In this document: positions 2,703 to 14,230 of the stretch, in pieces
Numbering within the stretch: the stretch's first letter is position 1
Layout: each line of letters opens with the position of its first letter
DNA from: an uncultured Eubacteriales bacterium
GTDB lineage: Bacteria; Bacillota; Clostridia; Oscillospirales; Acutalibacteraceae
Reading direction: 5' to 3'
DNA: 20,027 bases
NCBI GenBank assembly: GCA_934700635.1
Contig: CAKUXU010000005.1
Location: forward strand, 1 to 20,027
Translations under genes and position numbers: made by a program
Notes under the pieces: model-generated
Seen by the model: the letters and a program-made list of their open reading frames with translations, nothing else
Told to the model about the DNA's origin: nothing
Databases searched by the model: none

Positions 2703-5147
2703 ATGCTCTTAGTATATGGTGGTGCTAATAAATTGTTAGATGGATTTTCAGAAGAATTTTTAAAGCTTAGGAAAGCTTTGCTTGAGAAACGATTTTCAAA
2801 TTTGAATAAAAGACAACAAGAAGCAGTTTTTAATGTTAATGGACCTATGGTTGTTTTAGCAGGTGCAGGAAGCGGAAAAACCACTGCTATAATTAATAGA
2901 ATTGTTAATATGGTAGACTATGGGGATGCATACACAAATAATTTAGTTGATGAAAGTGAAGTAACAAAAGAAAATATTTCTTTGCTTAAAAATGCTTATA
3001 ATGGCTTTCAAAATATAGAATCGGTGAATTATTTACTTAAACTTAATCCTGTTGACCCTAAAAATATTCTTTCGATAACTTTTACAAATAAAGCTGCATC
3101 TGAACTTAAAAACAGACTTAAGCAAGCTTTAGGTGAAAAGTCACGAGATGTTTGTTCTTGTACATTTCATTCATTTTGTTCAAGAGTATTAAGGACTCAT
3201 GCTTTGAGACTTGGATATAGTAGTCATTTTACTATATATGATGATGAAGATAGCACAAAAGTAATAAAAGAATGTTTAAAAATGCTTAAACTTGATGACA
3301 AAGTGACTACACCTAGAAATATAAAAAATGAAATTTCTCGTATGAAAGATAAACTTATTGATTTTAAAGATTATAAGTTGTCTTTAAAAGATAGTTTAAG
3401 AAGCGCGATGCTTAGTGATATTTATGAATATTATCAAAATAAGCTAATTGAAGCTGATGCAATGGATTTTGACGATTTGATTTTTAATACAGTTAAGTTG
3501 TTTCAAAATTATCCTGAAATACTTGAATCTTATAGAGATGTTTTTAAATATATTCTTGTTGATGAATATCAAGACACAAACTATGCTCAATATGTGCTTA
3601 TTAAAAGTTTAGCAGAAAAAAGCGGAAATTTATGTGTTGTGGGAGACGATGATCAAAGTATTTATAAATTTCGTGGAGCAACAATAGAAAACATAATTGA
3701 TTTTGAAAAAGTTTTCCCAGGAGCAAAAGTAATAAAGTTTGAACAAAATTATCGTTCAAGTAAAAATATAATCGAAGCAGCAAATTCAATTATAAATAAT
3801 AACATTTACAGAAAAGGAAAAGAATTATGGACAAATAATTGCTGTGGAGAGCCGATTAGAATTCATACAGCGTACAGCGAACATGATGAAGCAAATTTTA
3901 TTGCCGAAGCTATCCAGGATAGAGTTGCAAAGGGCGAGAAATATTCAGATTTTGCAGTTCTTTACAGAAGAAATCTTCAATCAAATGTAATAGAAAAAGT
4001 ATTTATGAGACGCTCCATACCATACCGTGTATTTGGCGGTCAGAGGTTTTATGACCGAAAAGAAATAAAAGATATGATAGCATATTTAAGTGTCATAAAT
4101 AATCCTTTAGATGAAGTAAGACTTAAAAGAATAATTAATCAACCGAGACGGTCTATTGGTGAAAGAACTATCGCACAAGCATCTGAAATTGCAAAAGAAA
4201 CAAATAGTGATTTGTTTACTGTTATGAAAAACTGTGAAATGTATGATAGTCTCCAAAGAGTTTCAGTAAAGCTTAAATCTTTTTCAAATTTAATAGATGA
4301 GCTTATGTATATTTATGCTTCGGGAAGAGTTTCTGTTTCTGAGCTTTATGAAATTCTTCTTGAAAAAACTCAGTATATTAATTTTCTTAAATCCGAAAGA
4401 GACAATTCTGAGTCTAAAATTGAAAATGTGAAAGAATTTTTAAACAGTATAAAAAGTTATGAAGAAGAAAAAGGTAAAGACGCTACACTTTCAGGATTTT
4501 TAGAGGAAATATCTCTTTTTTCAGATATAGATAATTATGATTTAAATGCAGATGCAGTAATACTTATGACTCTTCATTCTGCTAAAGGGCTTGAATTTCC
4601 TAATGTTTTTTTGCCAGGACTTGAAGAAGGAATTTTCCCAAGTATTCAAGCAATAGACGATGAAGTGGAGCTTGAAGAAGAACGTAGGCTTGCTTATGTT
4701 GGTGTAACAAGATGCAAAAAAAGTTTGTACCTTCTTAATTCAGATAGCAGAATGCTTGCTGGAATTACTTCTCATAATAAAGCTTCTAGATTTTTGTGTG
4801 AAATTCCGCAAGAAATCGTGAAAAAAACAAAATCAAGAGATTGGAAAGATCTTAAAGAAGGAGAACCTATTCCTGAATCTGCTCAAGAACAAAGAGTTAA
4901 ATCTGTTATGGCTGCACATAATTTCGGCGGAATAGCAGGTGGAAAATCTAATCTATCTAAAAAAGGAGAAATTTCATCCGCAGATGTTTTTGAAAAAGAT
5001 ATGATGGTAAATCACGGATCATTTGGTGACGGAAAGATTTTATCTAGTGTTGAAATTGGTGGAGATCATTTACTTACAATAGATTTTGGAGGCTCTATAG
5101 GTTCCAAAAGATTACTTGCTAATTTTGCAAATCTAAAAAAAATATAA
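2703..5147 (+). CDS. pcrA: ATP-dependent DNA helicase, UvrD/PcrA (superfamily 1)
   Basis: The product is a superfamily 1A 3'-5' helicase of about 814 residues, somewhat longer than the roughly 740 of typical PcrA. Motifs appear in order: Q-motif LNKRQQEAV near residue 35, Walker A GAGSGKT near 55, Walker B region VDEYQDTN near 288, motif III DDDQSIYKFRGA near 315, and late motifs including MTLHSAKGLEF and RRLAYVGVTR. PcrA unwinds DNA in repair and in removal of proteins from DNA. An insertion after Walker A (about residues 70-100) fits a clostridial PcrA-like subgroup. The start is uncertain. ATG 2703, preceded in frame by TTG 2700, has no clear ribosome site. TTG 2733 lies about 10 bases after GGTGG and would give a 30-base-shorter N-terminus. 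Confidence 0.93.
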   Translation: MLLVYGGANKLLDGFSEEFLKLRKALLEKRFSNLNKRQQEAVFNVNGPMVVLAGAGSGKTTAIINRIVNMVDYGDAYTNNLVDESEVTKENISLLKNAYNGFQNIESVNYLLKLNPVDPKNILSITFTNKAASELKNRLKQALGEKSRDVCSCTFHSFCSRVLRTHALRLGYSSHFTIYDDEDSTKVIKECLKMLKLDDKVTTPRNIKNEISRMKDKLIDFKDYKLSLKDSLRSAMLSDIYEYYQNKLIEADAMDFDDLIFNTVKLFQNYPEILESYRDVFKYILVDEYQDTNYAQYVLIKSLAEKSGNLCVVGDDDQSIYKFRGATIENIIDFEKVFPGAKVIKFEQNYRSSKNIIEAANSIINNNIYRKGKELWTNNCCGEPIRIHTAYSEHDEANFIAEAIQDRVAKGEKYSDFAVLYRRNLQSNVIEKVFMRRSIPYRVFGGQRFYDRKEIKDMIAYLSVINNPLDEVRLKRIINQPRRSIGERTIAQASEIAKETNSDLFTVMKNCEMYDSLQRVSVKLKSFSNLIDELMYIYASGRVSVSELYEILLEKTQYINFLKSERDNSESKIENVKEFLNSIKSYEEEKGKDATLSGFLEEISLFSDIDNYDLNADAVILMTLHSAKGLEFPNVFLPGLEEGIFPSIQAIDDEVELEEERRLAYVGVTRCKKSLYLLNSDSRMLAGITSHNKASRFLCEIPQEIVKKTKSRDWKDLKEGEPIPESAQEQRVKSVMAAHNFGGIAGGKSNLSKKGEISSADVFEKDMMVNHGSFGDGKILSSVEIGGDHLLTIDFGGSIGSKRLLANFANLKKI

Positions 5148-5294: not shown

Positions 5295-6161
5295 ATGACA
5301 GAGAATTTTTCAACGTTTTCATGTCGTGAAAATAATCAGTTTAAAGAATCGGTATGTATAGATGCTTATCGTGTTTACGATTCATGTGCCGATAGAAGCT
5401 GTCTTAAGGATTTAAGGGTTAATTTTACTGAATCTGGTCAACATATAATTGACCAAGCTGCAAGTGTAAGAGTAAAAGATGTAAATGTTGTAACAGTTTT
5501 TATAGATATGGAACCTGTACCGTTTAGACGAGGATATTATTCCATAGATATGACTTATTTTTTAGAAGTTTGCATAGAAGCTTTTTTAGCTCCTTCAGTA
5601 ATGCCGGCAAGCGTTTCGGGACTTTGTGCTTTTAATAAAAAAGCTATACTTTACGGTAGTGAAGGAAATGTAAGTGTTTTTTCTTCTGAATATTCTTCAA
5701 ACGAAAACGATTTACAAAATGCATCAATAAGGAATTTACCTCGTGCAGTTGTTCAAGTGGCAGATCCAGTAGCTCTTTCTGCAAGAATTTGCTGTGCGGC
5801 AGATTGTGCAGTTCAACCTCAATTTAGAGTACCGGATTGCATTTGTAGAAGATTTGGAGGAGAATTTTTGCGCCCGAGTGCAAGTAGTAAATCAGTAGCG
5901 GTTACTCTAGGACTTTTTACTATTGTTCAAATAGAAAGAAATGTACAAATGCTTATTCCTGCATATGATTTTTGTGTTCCTAACAAAGAATGTACATCTT
6001 CTACCGCTGATCCGTGTGATTTATTCAGTAGAATAGAATTCCCTACAGAAGAATTTTTTCCACCACGTTCTCAAAGTAATGAGCCTCCTAAAGGTTGTTG
6101 TGGGGGATGTTCAGGATCGAGTAATTCATCATCTCAAGTAATTGAGCAACAAAATCAATAA
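5295..6161 (+). CDS. Conserved-looking clostridial protein of unknown function, cysteine-containing
   Basis: I cannot assign a named family to this 288-residue protein. Its sequence has the look of a conserved clostridial protein of unknown function: an N-terminal ESVCIDAYRVYDSCADRSC segment, a long central part rich in strands (VVTVFIDMEPVPF, GYYSIDMTYFLEV), a CCAADCAVQPQFRVPDCICRR cysteine cluster, then FTIVQIERNVQMLIPAYDF. The C-terminus is a low-complexity tail with GCCGGCSGSSNSSS. It has no signal peptide or membrane segment. Cysteine clusters and a Gly/Ser/Cys tail would suit a cross-linked spore-coat or cell-surface protein in a sporulating host, but this is only inference. A six-G ribosome site at 5280-5285 precedes ATG 5295, and a terminator follows directly. 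Confidence 0.8.
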   Translation: MTENFSTFSCRENNQFKESVCIDAYRVYDSCADRSCLKDLRVNFTESGQHIIDQAASVRVKDVNVVTVFIDMEPVPFRRGYYSIDMTYFLEVCIEAFLAPSVMPASVSGLCAFNKKAILYGSEGNVSVFSSEYSSNENDLQNASIRNLPRAVVQVADPVALSARICCAADCAVQPQFRVPDCICRRFGGEFLRPSASSKSVAVTLGLFTIVQIERNVQMLIPAYDFCVPNKECTSSTADPCDLFSRIEFPTEEFFPPRSQSNEPPKGCCGGCSGSSNSSSQVIEQQNQ

Positions 6162-6165
6162 AGTA

Positions 6166-6196
6166 AAAACTCTCCTTTGAAAAGTAGGAGAGTTTT
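6166..6196. terminator. Bidirectional terminator between convergent genes
   Basis: AAAACTCTCCT (6166-6176) and AGGAGAGTTTT (6186-6196) form an 11-base stem with a 9-base loop. The A/T-rich flanks on each side can serve transcription from both directions. It lies between the 288-residue protein gene (forward) and the leader peptide gene (reverse). Confidence 0.85.
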
Positions 6197-6201
6197 CTAT
6201 T

Positions 6202-6600
6202 TTAGAAATAATTTTTATTAATATATTTTCTTATTGATTTTACTGCCATAACTGTGCCAACAGCGACAGGAGCTGCTACACATACCGTAGGTACACCCAC
6301 AATAGCTGCTTGAGATGATATTACTGCTGCCTTTGTGGTTTTAGATTTAAAATTTTCATAGTTTGCCTTTATTGTGTTTACATATCCTACGGGAATTTTG
6401 GAGGTATCTCCATATATTGTTAAATTATATTCATCTTTTAAAATCATGCCGCTGTATGAAGGATATGATTCGTAAGAATTTTTTGGATACATACCGAGAA
6501 GCGCGCATCCTGTAGCTTCAAAACCATCTTTAAAATTATCAAAAGTTCCAGCGGTTAATTTTTCTAACTGAATATTATTTAAAGTTTGAATATTCATCAT
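6202..6600 (-). CDS. Double-glycine-type (AG) leader peptide, C-terminal apolar segment
   Basis: This 132-residue product starts with a leader of the type cut by C39 peptidase-containing ABC exporters: LNNIQLEKLTAG, with the Ala-Gly cut site at residues 17-18. The predicted mature chain is 114 residues: a polar, Tyr/Ser-rich body with two early cysteines (Cys32 and later Cys107), then an apolar Ala/Val segment at about 90-120, then a basic tail (KSIRKYINKN). The organisation equals that of the two peptides near 13.2-14.2 kb. Bacteriocin or signalling roles are both possible; the family is unassigned. The reverse-strand GAGGA lies 8 bases before the first of two tandem ATG codons, so residue 1 or 2 may be the real start. 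No exporter gene is in the window. Confidence 0.8.
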   Translation of the reverse strand: MMNIQTLNNIQLEKLTAGTFDNFKDGFEATGCALLGMYPKNSYESYPSYSGMILKDEYNLTIYGDTSKIPVGYVNTIKANYENFKSKTTKAAVISSQAAIVGVPTVCVAAPVAVGTVMAVKSIRKYINKNYF

Positions 6601-6646
6601 TATACTATTCCTCTATTATTAAAAAAAATTACATATTCTATTAATT

Positions 6647-6675
6647 ATTATAGTCATTATTTTTTGAAATGTCAA
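6647..6675 (-). promoter_or_regulatory. Consensus sigma-A promoter for the AG-leader peptide
   Basis: On the reverse strand TTGACA (6670-6675) and TATAAT (6647-6652) are both perfect and 17 bases apart. This is one of the strongest promoters in the window and predicts high expression of the peptide gene. It starts TTGACATTT, as does the promoter of the second leader peptide at 13162. Confidence 0.85.
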
Positions 6676-6725
6676 GTTTATTTTAATAAAAACAACGAAT
6701 ATTTATAATGTTATATCCTTATTGC

Positions 6726-8126
6726 TTATTTCCATAAAACAGTATCATTAATTCCACAGTCTGCAGCTTTAAAAACAGGGTCTTTTTTAGTCGCTTTTTG
6801 TCTGAGGTAGTCTTTTCGACATGCTTTATAACGATTAGAGAGTATTAATATAGTTATTATATTTATGATTGCTATGAAAGCCATAGATATATCTGCTAAA
6901 TTCCATGCTACTGAAGCTGTTGCAACACAACCGAACATTATAGGGAAAAAACTTAATATTCTTATTATTTTTAAAAGTTTGGGACTATCTTTTATAAAAA
7001 GTATATTAGGCTCACAAAATCCAAAGTTTCCTATTATTGCAGAAAATGCAAATGCCGAAACGGATAATGTTATAAAATGTACACCCCATACCCCCAAATG
7101 ATTTTCAAGAGCTTTTTGCATAAGTGGCATGCCTGTAATTGAAGTATTAAGATTTACTTCTGAAAGAAGAAGAATGAAAGCAGAAGTAGAGCAAATTAAA
7201 ATAGTATCTATAAAAACAGAAATAATTTGAGCAATACCTTGTTTAAAAGGATGAGACGTATCAGCTGATGCTGCAGCATTAGGAGCACTTCCCATACCTG
7301 CTTCATTAGAAAGTAATCCTCTTTTGATTCCTATTAAAATAGCACTTCCGCTAAGGCCACCGAAGACTGATTTAAAATCAAAAGCGGATTCAAATATTAG
7401 TGAAAACACCATTGGCAATTGTGAAAAATGGGATACTATTATATAAAGACCTGTCAAAATATAAATACTTGCCATTGCAGGAACTAAATACGAAGAAACA
7501 AAACCTATTCTTTTCATTCCACCAAAAACTACATATCCTACTAAGGAAGAAAGTATTATTCCCGTAACATATGGCCAAAATGTGTTTTCATAGTTCGGTA
7601 TATAATATTCAAGTGCAGAAGACATATTATGTGCTTGCAATGCATTGAATCCAAATAAAAAGCAAAATACAAATAAACTTGAAAACAAAACTCCTAGTTT
7701 TCTTTTTCCGAGAGCTTGACTTATATAGTAGGCAGGTCCACCTATAAAAGAATTTCCATCCTTGCTCTTTATTTTATATATCTGAGCTAGTGTAGCTTCG
7801 GCCATCGATGATGCAGATCCGATAATAGCCATAGCCCACATCCAAAATATTGCCCCAGGACCTCCTATAACAATTGCAGTTGCGACACCAGCAATATTAG
7901 CAGTACCTACTTTTGAAGCCGTGCAAATCATTAGTGCTTGAAAGGAAGATACCTTTTTACCTTCTGACTTTTCTCCTATTGATTTAATAGCTTCTGGGAA
8001 AAATCTAATCTGAGAGAATCCTCCCAATACAGTAAAATAAACTCCGCAGATTATTAAAAGTGCTACAAGTACATAAATATACAAGAAGTCACTTATGGGA
8101 GTTAAAATTGAATTTATATAATCCAA
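6726..8126 (-). CDS. Sodium:alanine/glycine symporter, AGCS family
   Basis: This integral membrane protein of 466 residues, with many hydrophobic segments, belongs to the alanine/glycine:cation symporter (AGCS, AlsT-like) family, whose members take up small neutral amino acids with Na+. The signature region is clear at about residues 70-95 (KVGTANIAGVATAI followed by GGPGAIFWMW). GGPAYYISQALGK, GLLSNEAGMGSAPNAAA and GFNALQAHNM further on are also typical. The family's usual GTGNI is GTANI here. The start is TTG at 8126, preceded by AAAGGAGG about 10 bases upstream on the reverse strand; no better ATG exists nearby. The length is normal. The substrate cannot be told from the sequence alone. 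The leader peptide gene follows 125 bases downstream but has its own promoter. Confidence 0.94.
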   Translation of the reverse strand: MDYINSILTPISDFLYIYVLVALLIICGVYFTVLGGFSQIRFFPEAIKSIGEKSEGKKVSSFQALMICTASKVGTANIAGVATAIVIGGPGAIFWMWAMAIIGSASSMAEATLAQIYKIKSKDGNSFIGGPAYYISQALGKRKLGVLFSSLFVFCFLFGFNALQAHNMSSALEYYIPNYENTFWPYVTGIILSSLVGYVVFGGMKRIGFVSSYLVPAMASIYILTGLYIIVSHFSQLPMVFSLIFESAFDFKSVFGGLSGSAILIGIKRGLLSNEAGMGSAPNAAASADTSHPFKQGIAQIISVFIDTILICSTSAFILLLSEVNLNTSITGMPLMQKALENHLGVWGVHFITLSVSAFAFSAIIGNFGFCEPNILFIKDSPKLLKIIRILSFFPIMFGCVATASVAWNLADISMAFIAIINIITILILSNRYKACRKDYLRQKATKKDPVFKAADCGINDTVLWK

Positions 8127-8244
8127 GACTATAAAACCTCCTTTTAGTTTAAATCATATAAAATATACCACATTTACTGAAATATTGGAAGATTATAATT
8201 TGATAAGTATCAATATATTTATTGAATAGTTTATTTCATTTCAG

Positions 8245-8288
8245 GTAAAAATTTTTTTAAAAAAAAATGATAAAAATGAAATTTTTAC
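8245..8288. repeat. AT-rich inverted repeat upstream of the ribbon-helix-helix gene
   Basis: GTAAAAATTT (8245-8254) and AAATTTTTAC (8279-8288) are perfect 10-base inverted copies. They directly abut the 15-base palindrome at 8286. With the hairpin at 8304-8334 this makes three stacked symmetrical elements in the 249-base gap between the symporter gene and the ribbon-helix-helix gene. Confidence 0.5.
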
Positions 8289-8300
8289 ACGAATCGTGTA
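8286..8300. promoter_or_regulatory. Palindromic operator candidate, copy 1
   Basis: TACACGA-A-TCGTGTA is a perfect 15-base palindrome. The stretch TACACG-AAT-CGTGTAGAAA reappears at 9727-9745 with only the three central bases changed. It lies 76 bases upstream of the TTG start of the ribbon-helix-helix gene. It is most likely the binding site of a dimeric regulator, either that protein or the nearby XRE protein. Confidence 0.65.
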
Positions 8301-8303
8301 GAA

Positions 8304-8334
8304 AAATATATGTTATAAAAATTAACATATATTT
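8304..8334 (+). repeat. 12-bp hairpin before the ribbon-helix-helix gene
   Basis: The arms 8304-8315 (AAATATATGTTA) and 8323-8334 (TAACATATATTT) pair perfectly with a 7-base loop. Part of the second arm (TTAACA at 8322-8327) could also serve as a -35 element for the following gene, with a weak -10 around 8344-8349. The role is unknown. Confidence 0.5.
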
Positions 8335-8375
8335 CTATTATTACATTATGTTACAATATAGCAGAGGTGGTAATA

Positions 8376-8579
8376 TTGATAAAAAATAAAAAGTTTCACC
8401 TCAGCTTGGGAACATCCAAGGGGGAGGATGGGTACAGGACTTTCTCAATACGATTAAAAAAGAAAGTTGTTGACAAACTTGACAATCTTTCATTTAAAAC
8501 CTGTAGAAGTCGAAATGAAATAATTTCACTTATGATTGATTTTTCGTTAGAGAATTACGAAGAAGCAAGTGGAGATTGA
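8376..8579 (+). CDS. Small ribbon-helix-helix (Arc/CopG-type) DNA-binding protein
   Basis: The 67-residue product has the pattern of a ribbon-helix-helix protein: a strand YRTFSIRL (about 20-27), a first helix KKKVVDKLDNLSF, a turn with CRSRNEI and a second helix ending DFSLEN. Such proteins dimerise through the strand and bind short palindromes, so the palindrome at 8286 may be its own operator. The TTG at 8376 is chosen because AGAGGTGG (8363-8370) lies 5 bases upstream; the in-frame GTG at 8367 overlaps that ribosome site. It could also be an antitoxin-like or plasmid/mobile-element type regulator, but no toxin gene lies next to it. A strong terminator follows. Confidence 0.8.
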   Translation: MIKNKKFHLSLGTSKGEDGYRTFSIRLKKKVVDKLDNLSFKTCRSRNEIISLMIDFSLENYEEASGD

Positions 8580-8602
8580 TATATTTATCTTTTTGAGGAA
8601 TG

Positions 8603-8647
8603 TACCCAGTCCGTAACCGTTAAGGTGCCCGGGCTGGGTATTTTTTT
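8603..8647 (+). terminator. Rho-independent terminator after the ribbon-helix-helix gene
   Basis: TACCCAG (8603-8609) pairs with CTGGGTA (8634-8640), with more GC pairs inside (TCCG with CCGG), followed by seven T residues at 8641-8647. The reverse strand lacks a T-run, so it acts mainly on forward transcription. Confidence 0.9.
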
Positions 8648-8652
8648 GTTTA

Positions 8653-8736
8653 TTAAATCTTTTCTTTCTTAATTTTAAATATCTTTCTTAAAAAGAAACC
8701 TAAAAATGCGGGACTTTTAACTACAACAACTTTCAT
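8653..8736 (-). CDS. spoVM: Stage V sporulation protein M (27 residues)
   Basis: This 27-codon frame encodes a very small amphipathic peptide that lines up without gaps with B. subtilis SpoVM (26 residues). Shared positions include Met1, Lys2, Lys7, Pro9, Phe11, Leu12, Gly13 and Arg17, and the C-terminus is basic. SpoVM is made in the mother cell, lies shallowly in the convex forespore membrane and anchors SpoIVA so that coat assembly and cortex formation can go on; Pro9 is known to matter for that shallow insertion. GGGAGG on the reverse strand, 9 bases before ATG 8736, is a strong ribosome site. It lies 25 bases after the 47-residue membrane protein gene and is probably transcribed with it. 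No convincing SigE promoter is visible. Genes of this length are often missed in annotation. Confidence 0.93.
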   Translation of the reverse strand: MKVVVVKSPAFLGFFLRKIFKIKKEKI

Positions 8737-8761
8737 ATATCAAGACCTCCCTATATTAAAG

Positions 8762-8905
8762 TCAACGTTTAACTAATGATATAGACAAAATTACAAGGAT
8801 CAGCGATATAATAATTATTATGACTTGTTCTGGAAATAAAAATGAAAGTATAAGCCCCAGTCCAAAAGCAAGTGAAAGTACACCTTGCTGTTTATAGCTA
8901 CACAT
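8762..8905 (-). CDS. Small membrane protein, 47 residues, unknown function
   Basis: This frame encodes a 47-residue peptide with two apolar stretches split by FPEQV: residues 8-24 (VLSLAFGLGLILSFLF) and 28-44 (mostly Ile, Leu, Val), with a KR end. It would span the membrane twice or form a hairpin. The reverse-strand sequence GGCGGTGA just before ATG 8905 offers a ribosome site about 7 bases away. It lies directly upstream of spoVM in the same direction, so it may be co-expressed in sporulation. I do not recognise a family. The frame begins right inside one arm of an 11-base inverted repeat. Confidence 0.65.
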   Translation of the reverse strand: MCSYKQQGVLSLAFGLGLILSFLFPEQVIIIIISLILVILSISLVKR

Positions 8906-8906
8906 A

Positions 8907-9000
8907 AAATTCACCGCCACTCACACATAGATAGAAAGCAATGACTGAAACTTAATTTTTAAGACCTCTGTTTCTATACTATACGAATAGCGGTGAATTT
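8907..9000. repeat. Spaced 11-bp inverted repeat between the 47-residue gene and xre
   Basis: AAATTCACCGC (8907-8917) and GCGGTGAATTT (8990-9000) are perfect inverted copies 72 bases apart. Between them TAGATAGAAA and TTTCTATACTA can also pair, so the whole stretch could fold as one long imperfect hairpin. It lies in the reverse-strand leader of the 47-residue gene and touches the 3' end of xre. It could be an RNA element between the two genes, or the ends of a small relic element. Confidence 0.6.
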
Positions 9001-9001
9001 G

Positions 9002-9391
9002 TTATTTTTTATTTTTATATTCAGACAAAACTACAGCAATTGCAACACGAAGGGCATTAGAAATTTTAATCTTACTTTCCTTGTCCATAAATTTTCCATT
9101 TAACATAATATTCTTTTCAGTTTCAATATATTTAGTAAATTTATCAAGCATCATTCCAACATCGTTGTCTTTTGTTTTAAAACAGTTTCCTTCTATATCA
9201 AGCATGTAGTCACTGGTAACATTTAATTCGTTACAAATTTTTGAAAGAACTTGGCCGCTCGGCTCTCTTCTTCCTTGCTCATACATTCCTATACAAGACG
9301 GTGAAACCTGTACTCTTTCGGCCAATTCAGATTGTGTAAGACCCGATTTAAGACGCAGGCTTTTAATTTTTTTACTTAAGTCTTCTTTCAT
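9002..9391 (-). CDS. XRE-family transcriptional regulator
   Basis: This 129-residue protein has an N-terminal Cro/C1-type helix-turn-helix: residues 18-45 read LTQSELAERV, then VSPSCIGMYEQGRREPS, the standard pattern with recognition helix and following turn. The C-terminal part (about 70-129) is helical and lacks recognisable TPR repeats or a peptidase domain, so it is a simple dimeric repressor-like protein, not an Rgg/PlcR-type peptide sensor. The start is ATG 9391, nine bases after AAAGGTG; the in-frame TTG nine codons upstream lacks a ribosome site. It diverges from the operon at 9755, and a palindrome lies at its own promoter, so autoregulation and control of the neighbouring genes are likely. 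Confidence 0.9.
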   Translation of the reverse strand: MKEDLSKKIKSLRLKSGLTQSELAERVQVSPSCIGMYEQGRREPSGQVLSKICNELNVTSDYMLDIEGNCFKTKDNDVGMMLDKFTKYIETEKNIMLNGKFMDKESKIKISNALRVAIAVVLSEYKNKK

Positions 9392-9517
9392 TAAGCTTAC
9401 ACCTTTCCTAACTTTCAATTTTTGATTTTTCCATCACTTAAAAAACTCATTTTATCAAATAATAACTGTTTCGACAGCGGAAGTAACGAGAAAATTGTCG
9501 TACAAATAAACTACTTT

Positions 9518-9552
9518 ATTATAGTATCATTCTACGCTTGTTGCACACAAGC
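9518..9552 (-). promoter_or_regulatory. Promoter and palindromic operator of xre
   Basis: On the reverse strand TATAAT (9518-9523) is a perfect -10 element. The 17-base palindrome GCTTGT-TGCAC-ACAAGC (9536-9552) covers where the -35 region would be, so bound protein would block RNA polymerase. This is a likely autorepression site. The surrounding 363-base gap (9392-9754) also holds the forward promoter at 9623 and the second palindrome at 9726, and I see no gene in it. Confidence 0.65.
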
Positions 9553-9622
9553 TAAGATAAAAAATGATATTTTTTGTAAAATTCTAGATTTTTGTTATTT
9601 AATGTTAAAAATAAAAAAATAG

Positions 9623-9651
9623 TTGACGGATAAATATACATATGCTACTAT
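9623..9651 (+). promoter_or_regulatory. Promoter of the 69-residue/sigma-like operon
   Basis: TTGACG (9623-9628) and TACTAT (9646-9651) are 17 bases apart. Transcription from about 9658 would give a leader of nearly 100 bases that contains the palindrome at 9726, right before the ribosome site. Confidence 0.7.
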
Positions 9652-9725
9652 ATTTATAAAAAGTGTTTTTTGGATTTGGTCTTAAAATTAAAAACAAATT
9701 ATTGAAATTATTTTTTTGCAGCTAA

Positions 9726-9742
9726 CTACACGTTTCGTGTAG
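9726..9742. promoter_or_regulatory. Palindromic element, copy 2, abutting the ribosome site
   Basis: CTACACG-TTT-CGTGTAG is a perfect palindrome with 7-base arms. It lies 84 bases after the promoter's -35 hexamer end and touches AAAGGAG (9743-9749), the ribosome site of the 69-residue gene. As DNA it matches the copy at 8286 (operator). As RNA it would be a short hairpin next to the ribosome site. Either way it can control the operon. Confidence 0.65.
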
Positions 9743-9754
9743 AAAGGAGAGTTT

Positions 9755-9964
9755 ATGTATTACCTGAAATTATACAAAGAGTACATAAAGCAAATGGATG
9801 TTTTGAAATCACATATTAAATCACTTAAAAATACTCCTGGTGAAATGTGGGAACATGAAAATATCAAATGGAGAGTTTCTGTGCTTTATAGTATGTATCT
9901 TGATATGAAACATACTGCTGAATATTTAAAAAGAAAATGCGAGGTTATGAAAAATGAAAACTAA
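9755..9964 (+). CDS. Small helical protein, 69 residues, unknown function
   Basis: The product is a highly charged, probably all-helical 69-residue protein rich in Lys, Tyr and Met, with no signal peptide or membrane segment. The segments YLKLYKEYIKQMDVLKSHI and VLYSMYLDMKHTAEYLKRKC read as two amphipathic helices split by a TPGEMW turn. I do not recognise a family. AAAGGAG at 9743-9749 precedes ATG 9755 at normal spacing. The last 11 bases overlap the start of the sigma-like gene, which suggests translational coupling and a joint function, as seen with small genes of phage or conjugative-element regulatory modules. Confidence 0.75.
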   Translation: MYYLKLYKEYIKQMDVLKSHIKSLKNTPGEMWEHENIKWRVSVLYSMYLDMKHTAEYLKRKCEVMKNEN

Positions 9965-10253
9965 ATTGTTTCATTTGGATGATTTTACGGAATCTATAAT
10001 AAGTGTTTCCGAGTATAAAAATAATATACACGATAAAGTTGATATTAATTATATGAAAATGAAAGAGGCAGTTAAAAATATAATTAAAGGGGAACTAACT
10101 CAAAGACAAAGAGTGTGTATTTTAATGTATTATGGTGAATCTATGAAAATGAAAGATATAGCAAGTAATTTGGGAATAGGAATTTCTTCAGTTTCAAGAC
10201 ATATTAAAAAAGCTAAAAACCGTATAAAAAAAACTATTGAATATTATTTTTGA
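9954..10253 (+). CDS. Sigma-70 region 4-like DNA-binding protein
   Basis: The 99-residue product has a clear sigma-70 region 4 / LuxR-like helix-turn-helix at about residues 48-93 (LTQRQRVCILMYYGE, then KDIASNLGIGISSVSRHIKKA). There is no region 2, so it cannot be a complete sigma factor. Proteins like this act as transcription activators or accessory sigma-like regulators in phage and integrative elements. The first 45 residues are polar and unassigned. GAGGT at 9941-9945 lies 8 bases before ATG 9954, inside the end of the upstream gene. The secreted peptide gene that follows has its own promoter and may be a target; that is inference. Confidence 0.85.
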   Translation: MKTKLFHLDDFTESIISVSEYKNNIHDKVDINYMKMKEAVKNIIKGELTQRQRVCILMYYGESMKMKDIASNLGIGISSVSRHIKKAKNRIKKTIEYYF

Positions 10254-10265
10254 ATTTGTTTATAG

Positions 10266-10294
10266 TTGACAAATTATACATATATAATTATAAT
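10266..10294 (+). promoter_or_regulatory. Consensus sigma-A promoter for the secreted peptide
   Basis: TTGACA (10266-10271) and TATAAT (10289-10294) are both perfect and 17 bases apart. A good ribosome site (AAGGGGA, near 10312-10318) follows, then ATG 10327. The gene should be strongly expressed unless repressed. Confidence 0.88.
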
Positions 10295-10326
10295 ATATAC
10301 ACATTTTAATAAAAGGGGACGATAAA

Positions 10327-10614
10327 ATGAAAAAATATAATTTTTTAGTAAAACAATTATTGTTGGGGACTTTTACCATGTCAATTTTAGTTTCTGTTCA
10401 AGATGCTTATACTGGTGTTTCTGAAAAGTCATTAAGAGAAAAAATGCAAGAAATGAATATTAAAGTTCCGGATGCTAATCCGGTTTACGGAAACCCTAAA
10501 AATAAAAGTGCTGAAAATAAAGAAAAATCCTCGCAAGATAATAAATCCTACGGCATAACAAATGAAATTTTACTTAAACAAATGGAAAAAATGGGTCTTA
10601 AACCTGTGTGTTGA
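10327..10614 (+). CDS. Small secreted peptide with internal repeat and C-terminal Cys
   Basis: This 95-residue product starts with a standard Sec-type signal: basic MKKYNFLVK, an apolar core to about residue 23, and a likely cut near QDA/YTG at 27. The mature part is hydrophilic. Residues 36-48 (LREKMQEMNIKVP) and 82-93 (LLKQMEKMGLKP) are diverged copies of one motif, joined by a Lys/Asn/Ser-rich linker. The chain ends in GLKPVC, a free C-terminal cysteine. There is no lipobox. A C-terminal short motif behind a Sec signal and a disordered spacer is the layout of peptide pheromone precursors such as PapR or Phr, but no partner receptor is evident here. I do not recognise a family. Confidence 0.8.
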   Translation: MKKYNFLVKQLLLGTFTMSILVSVQDAYTGVSEKSLREKMQEMNIKVPDANPVYGNPKNKSAENKEKSSQDNKSYGITNEILLKQMEKMGLKPVC

Positions 10615-10718
10615 TTTTTTGCTTATCGCTATAAATTGATTTTAATAGGTTTAAAAAGTCATAAAATATCTATAAATCATAAAATAGTTTAAAATCATCA
10701 ATAAATTTACAGCGCATT

Positions 10719-10752
10719 ATGACAAAAAATTCCATATGCTTGCTTATATAAT
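10719..10752 (+). promoter_or_regulatory. Candidate spoIIE promoter with wide spacing
   Basis: ATGACA (10719-10724) and TATAAT (10747-10752) are 22 bases apart, wider than the usual 17. Spo0A-activated SigA promoters such as B. subtilis spoIIE and spoIIG show this wide spacing with Spo0A boxes near the -35. TGACAAA (10720-10726) differs by one base from the Spo0A box TGNCGAA. Upstream, TCATAAAATA occurs twice (10659-10668 and 10677-10686), 18 bases apart. Confidence 0.4.
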
Positions 10753-10800
10753 TAATTCAAACGAAAAGTTTTAAGAATTAATAATAGGTGGCGATGGAAG

Positions 10801-13095
10801 TTGAAGGAATCTTTAGTTAAAACAAGCGGAAAGTTAGCACAGGCTGCTAAAAATTATTCTATTAAGTTGATTTTTGCAAAAACAATGTATTTTATTTCTG
10901 CAATGCTAATTTCAAGAGGTTATATTTTTGGCAGTTGCTATCCGTTTGGACTTTCTTTATCCGCATCTGTACCGGGTAAGATGCTTTTTCCTACTTTAGT
11001 TGGATCTATTTTTGGTTATTTGGTTCCTTTAAGACTGGGACAAGGTATGAGATACATATCTACAGTTATTTCAATAGCGGCAATAAGGTGGGCATTGAGT
11101 GATGTTGAAAAAATTAAAAATCATGTGCTTTACACGCCAATGGTTGTTTTTATGTCGTCTATTGTTACTGGTTTAGCGGTTAACTGTGCAGACGGATTTA
11201 GCAGTCACGGGGTTTTAATTACTTTCTTCGAATGTTTAGTTGCGTCTATTGTATCTTATTTTTTTGATACCAGCTTTAAAATTATTAAAAGTAAAAAAAT
11301 CTATAATCTTAATATGAAAGAGCTTTCGTGTATAGTTGCAAGCTTGAGTGTGTCTTTAATTTCTCTTTCAGGAATTAATATTCATGGGATATCGATCGGT
11401 AGAATTTTAGGTATAACTCTTACTTTAATTTCTGCATATTGCTTTGGAGTTGTAGGAGGGTGCATTGCGGGAGTTTCTGTAGGTGTTATATTTATATTGC
11501 CTTCTTTTGGCCTTAGCTATATTTCAGGAGCTTATGCTTTTGCTGGAATGATTTGCGGAGCATTTTCTTCATTTGGAAGACTAGGAATTTGTGTTTCATT
11601 TACTCCTGCATATTTACTTTTATGCTTAAGCTGTATGGATTTTATGCAGTCTTCTGGAAGAATTTATGAACTTTTATTTGGCCTTTTAATATTTTATGTT
11701 TTACCGAATTCGGTTTTTGGATTTCTAAAGAATAATGCGATTTACATAAATTCAACTAAAAATAATTGCTCTTCGGATTTCGCTTCAAAACGTCTTAAAT
11801 TAATTTCGGATTGTTTCGCTTCTTCATGCAGATGCCTTGAAAAAATAGAATTGGAAGCAGAAAATATATCTAAAACCAGTTTTGAAGAAACGGGTATTGA
11901 ATGTGTAAAAGCTTATTGTTCAGGATGTGGTATGAGGAAGCTTTGTTGGGATCAAAACTGTAAATCTACATATTTTTCGATTAAAAACATGATATATGAA
12001 ATTGCCAAATCGGATAAAGCTTTGAGCAGTTTAAAAAATTGCAATAAACAAAATGAAATAATAAAAAGAATAACCGCTTTAAAAAGAGATTTTTCTTCAT
12101 ATGAAGCTGTTAAAAATCAAACAAAAGAATTTAAAAGCATTGCAATGCATCATTTTGAGGACATAAGTCATTTACTTTCAGATATATCAGAAGGAATGAA
12201 ATTCGAAAACGATATTCCTGAAATAACACTTAAAATAAAAAAGTTATTAAGTAAGAAAAATATGAAATCAGAGGATGTATTGTGTAAAAAAATTAATGAT
12301 AAGATGTTTTTAAATATTAAAATAGGAATATTTGAAAAAAATAAATTTGATGAAAAATTACTTAAAGATATTTCATCTTTAATAGGAAGAAAAATGGACA
12401 AACCAATTTTTAACATGGTGGATAACAGCTGTATTGTTAATATTTCTGAGAAAAAAAATTACGAGGTTAACTTTTCGGTAAGCCAGCATGCATGTAACGG
12501 AGGAAAATTTTGCGGAGACAGTTGTAGGTGTTTTGAAGATGAAGAAGGAAACTTTAGCGTTATTTTGAGTGATGGAATGGGAACAGGAGGAGGTGCTGCT
12601 GTTGAAGGAACTTTGGCGGCTGAACTGACCAAACACTTTCTGAAATTCGGAATGAATTTTTCTTTAGCTTTGAAAATAGTTAACTCAGTTATGCTTTTAA
12701 ATACAAAATCCGAAACTTTAGCGGCATTGGATATACTTTCAATAAATCTTTTTAATGCGGAAGCAAAATTTATTAAAGCAGGTTCTCCGTCAGGGTTTAT
12801 AATTCATGAAAATGAAATTGAGAAAATAAATTTTTCATCCTTACCAATAGGAATACTAAGCGATGTTTCTTCTTCAAACAGAACTGTAAAATTAAATCCT
12901 GAAGATATAGTTATTATGGTTTCTGACGGTGTAACCGATTTAGGAGAACAATTTGTAGATGAATTGTTTAAGAATATGAATACGAGAAATGTCTCTGAAA
13001 TATCTAAATATGTAGTTTCTATGGCGGCAAAAGAGAGAAAAAACAGTGACGATGACGATATTACGGCAATTGCTATTAAAATTTCTGAAATATAA
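10801..13095 (+). CDS. spoIIE: Stage II sporulation protein E, membrane PP2C-type phosphatase
   Basis: The 764-residue product has the SpoIIE architecture: about ten membrane-spanning segments in roughly the first 310 residues, a helical central region with Cys residues (CVKAYCSGCGMRKLC), and a C-terminal PP2C phosphatase domain. Phosphatase metal-binding signatures are visible: CGDSC near 574, VILSDGMGTGGGA near 588 and IVIMVSDGVTDLG near 703. SpoIIE dephosphorylates SpoIIAA to release SigF in the forespore and also takes part in the polar septum. B. subtilis SpoIIE is 827 residues, so this is somewhat shorter. The start is TTG 10801, nine bases after AGGTGG (10786-10791); a nearby ATG at 10794 is in another frame. 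No neighbouring ftsH or tilS is seen. Confidence 0.95.
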   Translation: MKESLVKTSGKLAQAAKNYSIKLIFAKTMYFISAMLISRGYIFGSCYPFGLSLSASVPGKMLFPTLVGSIFGYLVPLRLGQGMRYISTVISIAAIRWALSDVEKIKNHVLYTPMVVFMSSIVTGLAVNCADGFSSHGVLITFFECLVASIVSYFFDTSFKIIKSKKIYNLNMKELSCIVASLSVSLISLSGINIHGISIGRILGITLTLISAYCFGVVGGCIAGVSVGVIFILPSFGLSYISGAYAFAGMICGAFSSFGRLGICVSFTPAYLLLCLSCMDFMQSSGRIYELLFGLLIFYVLPNSVFGFLKNNAIYINSTKNNCSSDFASKRLKLISDCFASSCRCLEKIELEAENISKTSFEETGIECVKAYCSGCGMRKLCWDQNCKSTYFSIKNMIYEIAKSDKALSSLKNCNKQNEIIKRITALKRDFSSYEAVKNQTKEFKSIAMHHFEDISHLLSDISEGMKFENDIPEITLKIKKLLSKKNMKSEDVLCKKINDKMFLNIKIGIFEKNKFDEKLLKDISSLIGRKMDKPIFNMVDNSCIVNISEKKNYEVNFSVSQHACNGGKFCGDSCRCFEDEEGNFSVILSDGMGTGGGAAVEGTLAAELTKHFLKFGMNFSLALKIVNSVMLLNTKSETLAALDILSINLFNAEAKFIKAGSPSGFIIHENEIEKINFSSLPIGILSDVSSSNRTVKLNPEDIVIMVSDGVTDLGEQFVDELFKNMNTRNVSEISKYVVSMAAKERKNSDDDDITAIAIKISEI

Positions 13096-13161
13096 CATAA
13101 TGTTTAAAAATATAATTTTACAATAATAAAAATTTATAAATAATTTTATATTAAAAAAGTG

Positions 13162-13190
13162 TTGACATTTTAAAAAAAATATAATACAAT
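13162..13190 (+). promoter_or_regulatory. Strong promoter of the GG-leader peptide at 13248
   Basis: TTGACA (13162-13167) and TACAAT (13185-13190) are 17 bases apart. It shares TTGACATTT with the promoter of the reverse-strand leader peptide. Transcription would begin near 13197, so the in-frame ATG upstream of 13248 is not used. Confidence 0.82.
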
Positions 13191-13247
13191 AAATGTGTGA
13201 GTTCGAGAGGACAAAACAAATCTGATAATATTTTAGGAGGACACAAA

Positions 13248-13595
13248 ATGTTAAATTTAAAAGCTTTAAGTATCAATGAACTCGAAAATGTAGTAGGAGG
13301 TAAGACAGCAGCCGAAGCAGGATTGTATGGATACAAAGACGGTGTAGTACAAACAGTTAAAGCAATTCTTCCTTTCCTTGAACCAACAGTAACAGAAGAA
13401 CTAGTTGAAGGTAAAAATAAAGAACTCGGTTACTTCTCAAAAATTGGAAAGAACTTCTCAAACATTGATGGCACAGGCAAAAAAGTTGCAGTAGCAGCAA
13501 CTATAGCAGGCGCTCCAGCAGCAGGAGCAGCTGCAGTAGCAGGAGCAGCTGTCGGCGGATACTTCTTAGTAAAAAAATACTTAATTAAAAAATAG
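13248..13595 (+). CDS. Double-glycine leader peptide, Ala/Gly-rich C-terminus, likely highly expressed
   Basis: This 115-residue precursor has a textbook double-glycine leader, LSINELENVVGG, ending at residues 17-18. The leader is typical of substrates of C39-peptidase ABC exporters. The mature chain would be 97 residues: a polar part with LPFLEPTVTEEL, then an Ala/Gly-rich apolar stretch at about 79-107, then KKYLIKK. ATG 13248 follows TAGGAGG (13234-13240). The longer frame starting at 13197 begins at the expected transcription start and is discarded. All four Phe codons are TTC and four of five Tyr codons are TAC, unlike the AT-loving neighbours; with a strong promoter and ribosome site this points to heavy expression. 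A bacteriocin-like or signalling role is inferred, not shown. Confidence 0.85.
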   Translation: MLNLKALSINELENVVGGKTAAEAGLYGYKDGVVQTVKAILPFLEPTVTEELVEGKNKELGYFSKIGKNFSNIDGTGKKVAVAATIAGAPAAGAAAVAGAAVGGYFLVKKYLIKK

Positions 13596-13623
13596 TTTAA
13601 ACTATAAGGTGTAATTCTTTTTC

Positions 13624-13800
13624 TCACTGTAGGGGGTTGAAGATGTAAGCCTAGTACCGTGGGCCATATGGGAATTCACACTTGTAGACACTGCGTAAGA
13701 CGTTCTAAATTTAGTAGAATGCAGAGTGATTAAAGCAATAAGCCACCTATTTAATCTTCATTGTAGATAGTTAAGTGGGTGGTAGTTTGCAACTAAATAG
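13624..13800 (+). ncRNA. Structured RNA candidate, family not assigned (raiA-type possible)
   Basis: The gap between two leader peptide genes is denser in GC-bearing sequence than other intergenic DNA here and folds well. A 12-pair stem joins CCACCTATTTAA (13743-13754) with TTAAGTGGGTGG (13771-13782), with only wobble pairs as departures. Its 16-base loop contains TCTTCA (13755-13760), which is complementary to TGAAGA at 13638-13643, giving a possible pseudoknot. A 7-pair hairpin joins 13701-13707 with 13715-13721, enclosed by CACT/AGTG (13689-13692 with 13725-13728). GCCT/GGGC (13649-13652 with 13661-13664) forms another stem. There is no open frame. Size and pseudoknot would suit the clostridial raiA RNA; 6S RNA was also considered. 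It could instead be the leader of the next gene, whose ribosome site begins at about 13801. Confidence 0.55.
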
Positions 13801-13820
13801 AAAGGAAAAGGTTTATAAGT

Positions 13821-14180
13821 ATGAAATTGATTTCTGATTCTGGTTTTTTGAGTAAAGTCTCTGGAGGGCAGGAGTATGGGTCGAAGGAATTTGCATTTAT
13901 TAATGCAAAAAATTACTATATAAACCTTCTTCCTATGTGCAAAAAGGATCATATCAAAGTTACATATACTGTAAATGGTGAAGGTTGGTCTAGTTCTGAT
14001 CAGGATAATAAATGGACGAGAGATTTAACCGAAACACTTTACAGAGAGGAAATGTGTTGGAAAAATTTAAGCGGAAAAGAAAAGCTGTATGTTGCTTTGC
14101 CTCCTATGTTTGTTGCAACTTGTGTTGCAGGTGTGGCAGGTAAAATGATTTATAGACATATCAAAAATAAAGTTGGATAA
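13821..14180 (+). CDS. Double-glycine leader peptide, third member
   Basis: This 119-residue precursor has a short leader ending GG at residues 15-16 (SGFLSKVSGG), with Leu and Val at the hydrophobic positions of double-glycine leaders. The mature chain of about 103 residues has two Trp, two internal Cys (40 and 79), a polar middle and an apolar C-terminal segment (about 89-111, VALPPMFVATCVAGVAG) with a basic tail (RHIKNK). The layout equals the other two leader peptides although the sequence differs. AAAGGAAAAGG (13801-13811) precedes ATG 13821. No own promoter is obvious; the structured RNA stretch just upstream may be its leader. A terminator follows directly. Confidence 0.78.
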   Translation: MKLISDSGFLSKVSGGQEYGSKEFAFINAKNYYINLLPMCKKDHIKVTYTVNGEGWSSSDQDNKWTRDLTETLYREEMCWKNLSGKEKLYVALPPMFVATCVAGVAGKMIYRHIKNKVG

Positions 14181-14184
14181 AGAT

Positions 14185-14221
14185 AAAAAGCTCATCTTAA
14201 ATTTGAAAAGATGAGCTTTTT
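14185..14221. terminator. Bidirectional terminator between leader peptide 3 and tadA
   Basis: AAAAAGCTCATCTT (14185-14198) pairs with AAGATGAGCTTTTT (14208-14221) over 14 bases, with a short loop. T residues follow the stem on the forward strand, and the leading A run gives T residues on the reverse strand. It lies between two convergent genes. Confidence 0.92.
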
Positions 14222-14230
14222 TGTTAGATT

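Follow-up and report, generated by a model that had tools for sequence, protein, structure and literature searches.

Which system would cut and export the products of three small genes, P1, P2 and P3, that carry double-glycine-type leaders on one stretch of clostridial DNA, and what would these products do? The stretch, referred to here as the window, comprises 20,027 nucleotides of contig CAKUXU010000005.1 (assembly GCA_934700635.1, an uncultured Eubacteriales bacterium). Analysis of the window together with genomes of relatives suggests, with a probability of roughly 0.8, that P1, P2 and P3 are small proteins cut and exported by an unlinked LahT-like exporter of the NHLM type, and that they belong to a repertoire of precursors dispersed through the genomes of a genus. 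The genes and the codons of the P1 and P2 leaders are listed below.

6202..6600, reverse strand: P1, 132 amino acids; leader of 18 amino acids ending in QLEKLTAG at the cut; mature part of 114 amino acids with an apolar segment and a basic tail
6547..6600, reverse strand: leader codons of P1, with Leu at -12, Gln at -8, Leu at -7 and Ala-Gly at -2/-1, read from the sequence
13248..13595, forward strand: P2, 115 amino acids; leader of 18 amino acids ending in NELENVVGG at the cut; mature part of 97 amino acids
13248..13301, forward strand: leader codons of P2, with Leu at -12, Glu at -8, Leu at -7 and Gly-Gly
13821..14180, forward strand: P3, 119 amino acids; leader of 16 amino acids ending in FLSKVSGG at the cut; mature part of 103 amino acids

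Leaders and shared anatomy

The list of open reading frames (ORFs) confirmed the three double-glycine precursors reported by the first-pass annotation, with the same coordinates, lengths and leaders. Comparison of residues with the L(-12)/E(-8)/L(-7)/GG consensus, which is described for substrates of the exporter PCAT1 (PMC6959990), found all four elements in P2 and a part of them in P1 and P3; the P3 leader has Leu at -7 and the double glycine, with Phe at -8, Ser at -12 and Ile at -13. The apolar segment and basic tail noticed earlier are present at the end of all three mature parts, as a hydrophobic stretch of 17 residues (mean Kyte-Doolittle value 2.17 in P1, 1.70 in P2 and 1.85 in P3) followed by a tail with a net charge of +4. 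The segment of P2 is of the Ala/Gly/Val type and precedes the tail KKYLIKK. The structure model of P3 shows a long C-terminal helix at residues 85-118 with the basic tail (predicted local distance difference test, pLDDT, 57.5 for the whole chain, 68-80 in blocks from residue 81 onward). All three proteins scored below the cut-offs of the curated families in Pfam and NCBIfam, and the best match of the P2 profile in a sequence search of PDB had an E-value of 0.65.

A leader hidden Markov model (HMM) was trained on 34 leader sequences from relatives; neither the window proteins nor homologues of P1, P2 or P3 contributed to it. The 34 leaders were collected by pattern and with a profile of 19 leaders (A5: three from the window, one from the protein P0006 and 15 from the related genome G182), and as this profile holds the window leaders the test is not fully independent. 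The HMM scored P2 at 17.9, P1 at 10.9 and P3 at 8.0 bits, and thus placed them first to third among the 74 window ORFs of at least 40 amino acids, which bears out the leaders; the next ORF scored 4.2 bits. In the shuffle control (100 shuffles per ORF), 24 of 7,400 shuffled ORFs reached at least 5 bits, with a maximum of 9.4. Taken alone, the P3 leader is marginal.

Family relations

Relatives were found for each of the three proteins. P1 is represented by an identical copy and by P0009 (78% identity), which retains the AG leader, and P2 by P0004-P0007 (98 to 50% identity) and a homologue in G182. P3 is represented by P0001-P0003 (99 to 73% identity) and by homologues that follow spoIIE in the genomes G001 and G182; the double glycine is kept in all five members of this family. 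One sister genome probably holds P0002, P0005 and P0009 together.

Comparison of the P1 and P2 family profiles including leaders gave an hhalign probability of 96%. The mature parts alone scored 28.6 (maximum of 100 column shuffles, 22.1), at a probability of just 51%. Pairwise shuffle tests of P1 or P0009 with P0006 or P0007 gave z values of 3.1 to 4.0, and the test of P1 with the P2 of the window did not reach a z of 3. On these comparisons, P1 and P2 are probably distant homologues. P3 was rejected as a relative of either and forms a separate family. The different bodies described at first are therefore found between P3 and the other two, whereas P1 and P2 probably diverged from a common ancestor. 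Likewise, the shared design is seen in all three genes, but for two of them it probably reflects homology, and in relatives it is one of several body types borne by such leaders.

Within the P2 family (four members), mean pairwise identity was 86% for the leader, 45% for the body and 67% for the apolar end. The far better conservation of the leader than of the body supports the view that these genes encode export precursors. A search of 200 family genomes with the P2 profile gave four matches: the one in G182 (E 2e-8) was accepted, those in G124 and G161 were rejected because they are located on SecE frames, and that in G095 was rejected because of an internal stop.

The locus in relatives

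Scanning genome contigs with the SpoIIE protein yielded one relative that has the gene order of the window, G001, a metagenome-assembled genome of an uncultured member of the Clostridia. In G001, a P3 homologue follows spoIIE (29% identity, E 1e-18) and the P1 site is empty, its flanking genes lying about 160 bases apart. In G182, which belongs to the same genus as G001, the locus comprises spoIIE, homologues of P2 and P3, a membrane protein matching DUF3792/TIGR04086, and two more short GG precursors; P1 is again missing, with the flanking genes 39 bases apart. The alanine symporter of the window shares 76% identity with that of G182 and 75% with that of G001, and SpoIIE shares 52% and 51%, respectively; from these identities we infer that the window lies in or near that genus. 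Strong P3-like proteins are confined to G001 and G182 among the 11 genus genomes, and each of these two had contributed rows to the P3 model; two further matches to this model are weak (E about 0.05). The empty P1 sites and the presence of strong P3-like proteins in two of 11 genomes suggest that the precursors come and go within the genus.

An NHLM exporter in the genus

A C39 peptidase domain above the Pfam cut-off was found in all 11 genus genomes. The frames that carry it are open for 721-737 amino acids in ten of them, and the frame of 312 amino acids in G207 is cut at a contig end. Additional C39 matches occur in G068 (a second frame of 582 amino acids) and, as short matches, in G208 and G204. 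Two genomes, G001 and G182, were scanned with the models of the NHLM system. The peptidase-ATPase model TIGR03796 gave 900.6 and 911.8 bits, respectively (cut-off 853.3), and the model of the second ATPase, TIGR03797, gave 735.2 and 726.9 bits (cut-off 709.4). The adapter model TIGR03794 remained below its cut-off of 156.2 bits (92.2 and 95.4), the adapters being short forms of 194-195 amino acids. As judged by these models, the exporter of G001 and G182 is an NHLM system. For the C39 domain of G001, LahT was the best match (PDB 6mpz, 184.8 bits), and PCAT1 scored about 53 bits. Each of 11 C39 rows, one per genus genome, shows the Cys and His motifs; the second match in G068 (L031) is not among these rows.

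In six of the nine genomes with a readable neighbour (G001, G206, G182, G068, G205 and G207), a gene for ATPase subunit D immediately precedes the exporter. This gene was recognised by PF01813 in G001 and by motif or by eye elsewhere, and in G205 and G207, which the pattern missed, from the listed ORFs. The exporter is not behind such a gene in G208, G204 and G201, and in G203 and G202 the contig ends first. In G001 (439-14082 of L019, with matches to PF01813 and PF22919) and G182 (126983-140552 of contig C2), the NHLM exporter genes come after an operon of the V/A-type ATPase.

In G182, more than 54 kb separate the exporter from the nearest curated precursor on the same contig, and a pattern scan of 20 kb around the exporter of G001 found no precursor. 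An exporter elsewhere in the genome, as the first-pass annotation had proposed, agrees with this unlinked position in both relatives. Processing by a C39 peptidase is likewise well supported through the relatives, where the domain occurs in all 11 genus genomes and leaders track exporters (see below), but the notion of a single exporter does not hold strictly, given the additional matches in G068, G208 and G204.

Leaders and exporters across genomes

Scanning the 11 genus genomes with profile A5 gave matches in all of them, 6 to 25 each at E ≤1, a threshold at which chance alone should give about one match per genome; G182 was in the training set, and some matches fall in long, probably unrelated frames. 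One sample of 60 family genomes was used for both the C39 and the leader scans, with a leader threshold of E 0.1. Leaders were found in five of the 60 (G001, G006, G034, G042 and G047), all among the seven genomes with a full-length C39 exporter, and in none of the 53 without one. Seven further genomes with partial or weak C39 matches were not counted as full-length. Small genomes without a C39 match (G005, G020, G023, G028 and G059; 1.0-1.4 Mb) had no leader match.

A clustered form of the arrangement was observed in G047 and G042, where precursors with longer leaders form arrays downstream of a full-length C39 exporter (15105-18620 of L022 and 15192-18550 of L023). In both arrays, the first precursor scores above the 32.3-bit cut-off of the Nif11 leader model, at 45.9 and 39.3 bits.

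The repertoire of G182

All 1,087,135 bases of G182 were scanned, and inspection by eye selected 24 precursors: 83 loose pattern matches yielded 20 of them, and the leader-model list the other four. A leader model built from nine leaders, none of them from G182, gave 14 of the 3,372 ORFs a score of at least 8 bits, compared with 12 in ten shuffled sets (1.2 per set); 13 of these 14 ORFs belong to the curated 24. The genes are scattered, and their bodies are of apolar, CxxC and small polar types. The mature part contains a transmembrane-like segment in 9 of the 24, and the design of the window proteins, an apolar segment with a short basic tail, occurs in six, compared with 24 among 350 small ORFs outside the set (Fisher p 0.008). 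CxxC pairs are present in eight precursors, seven of which have two pairs. Precursors at loci of other genus members show a similar mix of bodies by eye. In view of this variety, the three window proteins represent the apolar class of a wider set.

The CxxC precursors of G182 resemble zinc ribbons (4816-8418 of L114, 13095-13397 of L121 and 1809-2075 of L090). Weak Pfam matches in the scanned set were to DUF7685, DksA/TraR and Gin zinc fingers.

YcaO was absent from the 11 genus genomes, and neither G001 nor G182 gave a LanC-like match; both results are in line with unmodified products. With these two enzyme models searched, the products are probably unmodified. P1, P2 and P3 did not match the leader models TIGR03798 and TIGR03793 at E-values up to 10.

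Proposed processing and points against it

The short leader of each precursor would dock on the C39 peptidase domain of an ATP-binding cassette (ABC) exporter of the NHLM type, similar to LahT and encoded elsewhere in the genome, the chain would be cut after GG or AG, and the remaining 97-114 residues would be exported. The same exporter would serve a large dispersed repertoire of precursors in the genus. After export, the C-terminal apolar helix and basic tail would most likely insert into a membrane, either that of the producer, with the body outside and the tail inside, or that of a neighbouring cell. It is the anatomy, an apolar segment with a basic tail, that points to membrane action or tethering, and it does not separate these two fates.

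Published work describes steps of this kind. Residues -7 and -12 mediate docking of the leader helix on C39, and the leader is cut at the double glycine; inside the transporter cavity the cargo is unstructured (PMC6959990, PMC6363468). The LahT protease is reported to act on widely differing leaders, among them short leaders that are cleaved behind GA or GS, and to be highly tolerant of the sequence beyond the cut (PMC6363468), and PCAT1, another clostridial C39 exporter, moves the 90-residue substrate CtA (PMC6959990). By analogy, the exporter of the genus would behave like the LahT/PCAT1 type.

Several observations weigh against cleavage and export by such an exporter. The exporter was seen in the genomes of relatives, so its presence in the window species would follow from kinship, and the Asp motif, searched with a narrow pattern, was found in just four of the 11 genus exporters. 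The P1 leader ends in AG instead of GG; the P3 leader has no Leu at -12, and its 8.0 bits fall among the top shuffles. The structure model of P2 is of no use (pLDDT 39). The association of leaders with exporters gave Fisher values of 3.8e-6, or 3.3e-5 without G001, which overstate independence because the 60 genomes are related; the five leader-positive genomes, which all measure 1.0-1.4 Mb, may belong to a single clade, and G011 and G037 have a full-length C39 exporter without a leader match. Finally, partial LanC-like matches occur in three of the 11 genus genomes (contig C51 of G201, C46 of G068 and C66 of G203), at 26.4 bits against the Pfam cut-off of 23.2; they cover positions 4-80 of 350, with two TGA codons in the frames.

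A broader proposal, which we put forward tentatively, is that the C39 exporter in this small-genome genus is a general secretion route and not a bacteriocin accessory. In the 1.09-Mb genome of G182, the products of about 24 scattered genes, among them CxxC zinc-ribbon-like mini-proteins and others that, like the three of the window, would be anchored in the membrane at the C-terminus, would leave the cell through one LahT-like exporter, which sits behind V/A-type ATPase genes in six of the nine genus genomes with a readable neighbour.

Transcription units

The following features surround the three genes.

6647..6675, reverse strand: P1 promoter of sigma-A type, TTGACA-17-TATAAT, 12 of 12 consensus positions
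13162..13190, forward strand: P2 promoter of sigma-A type, TTGACA-17-TACAAT, 11 of 12 consensus positions
13235..13240, forward strand: AGGAGG ribosome-binding site of P2, read from the sequence
6160..6206, reverse strand: hairpin and T run after P1, resembling an intrinsic terminator (-15.2 kcal/mol, z -4.4)
14180..14226, forward strand: terminator-like hairpin with T run after P3 (-16.7 kcal/mol, z -5.4)
13596..13815, forward strand: 220 bases that separate P2 from P3 and fold strongly (-61.5 kcal/mol and z -3.1, computed over 13590-13815)

Two of the genes had been described as sharing a promoter that starts with TTGACATTT. Copies of TTGACATTT do lie in the promoters of both, but as an ordinary consensus -35 element that marks nothing special: the window contains three copies against 0.94 expected, and three were reached in 7 of 100 shuffles. 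Since two of the copies are parts of very good sigma-A-type promoters, ordinary transcription is indicated, and a special regulon was rejected. The start of P2 is placed at ATG 13248 because AGGAGG lies directly upstream; the ORF list had put a GTG start at 13197.

Both hairpins come from folding, and the terminator pattern scan listed neither. The hairpin 3' of P1 suggests that P1 is a single-gene unit. The promoter scan found no plus-strand promoter in the gap ahead of P3, which may be transcribed from the P2 promoter. Between promoter and hairpin, neither the P1 unit nor the P2-P3 unit contains another gene of at least 50 amino acids on the same strand. The stretch 13596-13815 matched no Rfam family and no plasmid, and apart from one 17-base match it has no copy in the 11 genus genomes.

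Alternative explanations

The products may be class II-type bacteriocins, that is, exported, membrane-active peptides of unusual length with resistance from an unlinked source; we consider this possible, though short of an even chance. The leader is class-II-like, P2 reaching 14.8 bits with TIGR01847, just under the cut-off of 15.7. In an alignment of 28 proteins (A4: three from the window, one from G001 and 24 from G182), three match Bacteriocin_IIc (best E 8.5e-6), four the CTB-family bacteriocin model (8.1e-5) and three the cerein 7B model (0.00088); three match the Nif11 leader model TIGR03798 at E ≤0.05, none of them a window protein. Apolar ends rich in Ala and Gly, bodies that change fast and the patchy presence described above (P1 sites empty in G001 and G182, P3 strong in two genus genomes) would also suit bacteriocins. 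However, none of the three passes a bacteriocin cut-off: P2 scores 10.9 against 27.1 bits with PF10439, and P1 and P3 match neither PF10439 nor TIGR01847. No immunity gene accompanies P1 or P2-P3, as P1 is likely a single-gene unit and P2-P3 is closed by a terminator, and the DUF3792/TIGR04086 membrane protein that follows P3 in G182 has no counterpart beside the P3 of the window. Moreover, similar leaders carry CxxC and polar bodies in G182.

The proteins could instead belong to the surface or matrix of the producer, tethered by the helix or acting in aggregation or biofilm as the EbfG proteins of Synechococcus do, which we regard as slightly less likely. As a general rule, a basic tail beyond the helix suits an anchor with the body outside and the tail inside. 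The C39 domain in all 11 genus genomes and an exporter behind the gene for V/A-type ATPase subunit D in six of nine genomes look like a core function, and PteB/EbfG1-4 provide a precedent (PMC4997328). On the other hand, P1, P2 and P3 are not conserved across the genus, and the likeness to EbfG is one of description.

Precursors of signals or pheromones read by a receptor are improbable. Weak ComC matches occur in two of the 28 aligned proteins (best E 0.0066), but mature parts of 97-114 amino acids are, to our knowledge, far above the size of known double-glycine pheromones, and the window ORFs, read by eye, include no histidine kinase or receptor gene. Chance GG motifs on ordinary small membrane proteins are very improbable, for although P3 alone lies within reach of shuffled ORFs, all three genes rank first, the leaders are conserved in each family, and no leader occurs in the 53 genomes without a full-length C39 exporter.

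Comparison with known systems

Export of P1, P2 and P3 by an unlinked LahT-like exporter can be compared with five described systems. LahT with LahA1-9 of Lachnospiraceae C6A11 (PMC6363468) is alike in that LahT is the best match for the C39 domain of G001 and in that one tolerant protease handles many bodies with well-kept leaders. The LahA precursors are described as sharing a single cluster, a lanthipeptide operon, with their exporter and as having Nif11-type leaders (PMC6363468), whereas the leaders of the window have 16-18 amino acids, the precursors of G182 are scattered, and G001 and G182 gave no YcaO or LanC-like match. The NHLP/Nif11 NHLM export system (PMC2887384) shares both ABC subunits, which pass in G001 and G182, and a correlated distribution of leaders and exporters; the adapters of G001 and G182, however, are below cut-off, and the window precursors match neither leader model. 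Haft et al. 2010 argued that leader conservation reflects handling by a common transport system, and genomes with up to 29 Nif11-type precursors are reported there (PMC2887384).

PCAT1 with CtA of Clostridium thermocellum (PMC6959990) is likewise a clostridial C39 exporter with a cargo of 66 residues and the L-12/E-8/L-7/GG leader, but the C39 domain of G001 is nearer to LahT (184.8 against about 53 bits), and for PCAT1 one substrate is described (PMC6959990). PteB with EbfG1-4 of Synechococcus elongatus (PMC4997328) combines several small double-glycine proteins, a common C39 exporter and a role in biofilm. The four EbfG genes are described as lying in one transcript, with mature proteins of 6-7 kDa (PMC4997328); they were compared by description and not by sequence. 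Class II bacteriocins (PF10439, TIGR01847) have the same leader type and apolar segments rich in Gly and Ala. P1, P2 and P3 are longer than these bacteriocins mostly are, lack an immunity gene and fall below the curated cut-offs.

The principle of export is thus known, as is the use of one C39 exporter by several small proteins (EbfG of Synechococcus, PMC4997328). As far as literature listings show, the precursor families, the combination of short class-II-like leaders with an unclustered NHLM exporter, and the variety of bodies, including CxxC mini-proteins, are new; no title or abstract opening among the papers listed concerned the scattered precursors of this genus, which supports novelty weakly. 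Double-glycine export is commonly taken to indicate a cluster for bacteriocins or for ribosomally synthesised and post-translationally modified peptides (RiPPs), and is sought beside the exporter. If the proposed dispersed repertoire is real, cluster-based mining would overlook a large share of the peptides that these Clostridia secrete, and one exporter deletion or C39 assay would bear on dozens of uncharacterised proteins together.

Other features of the window

An ORF of 95 amino acids lies just upstream of spoIIE at 10327-10614, and by eye its N-terminus resembles a Sec signal peptide. At 4647-4751, within a helicase-like ORF, a sub-threshold match to the Rfam family n00280 (E 0.00034) was found. 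This match most likely reflects shared coding sequence, because the n00280 family sits inside a helicase gene.

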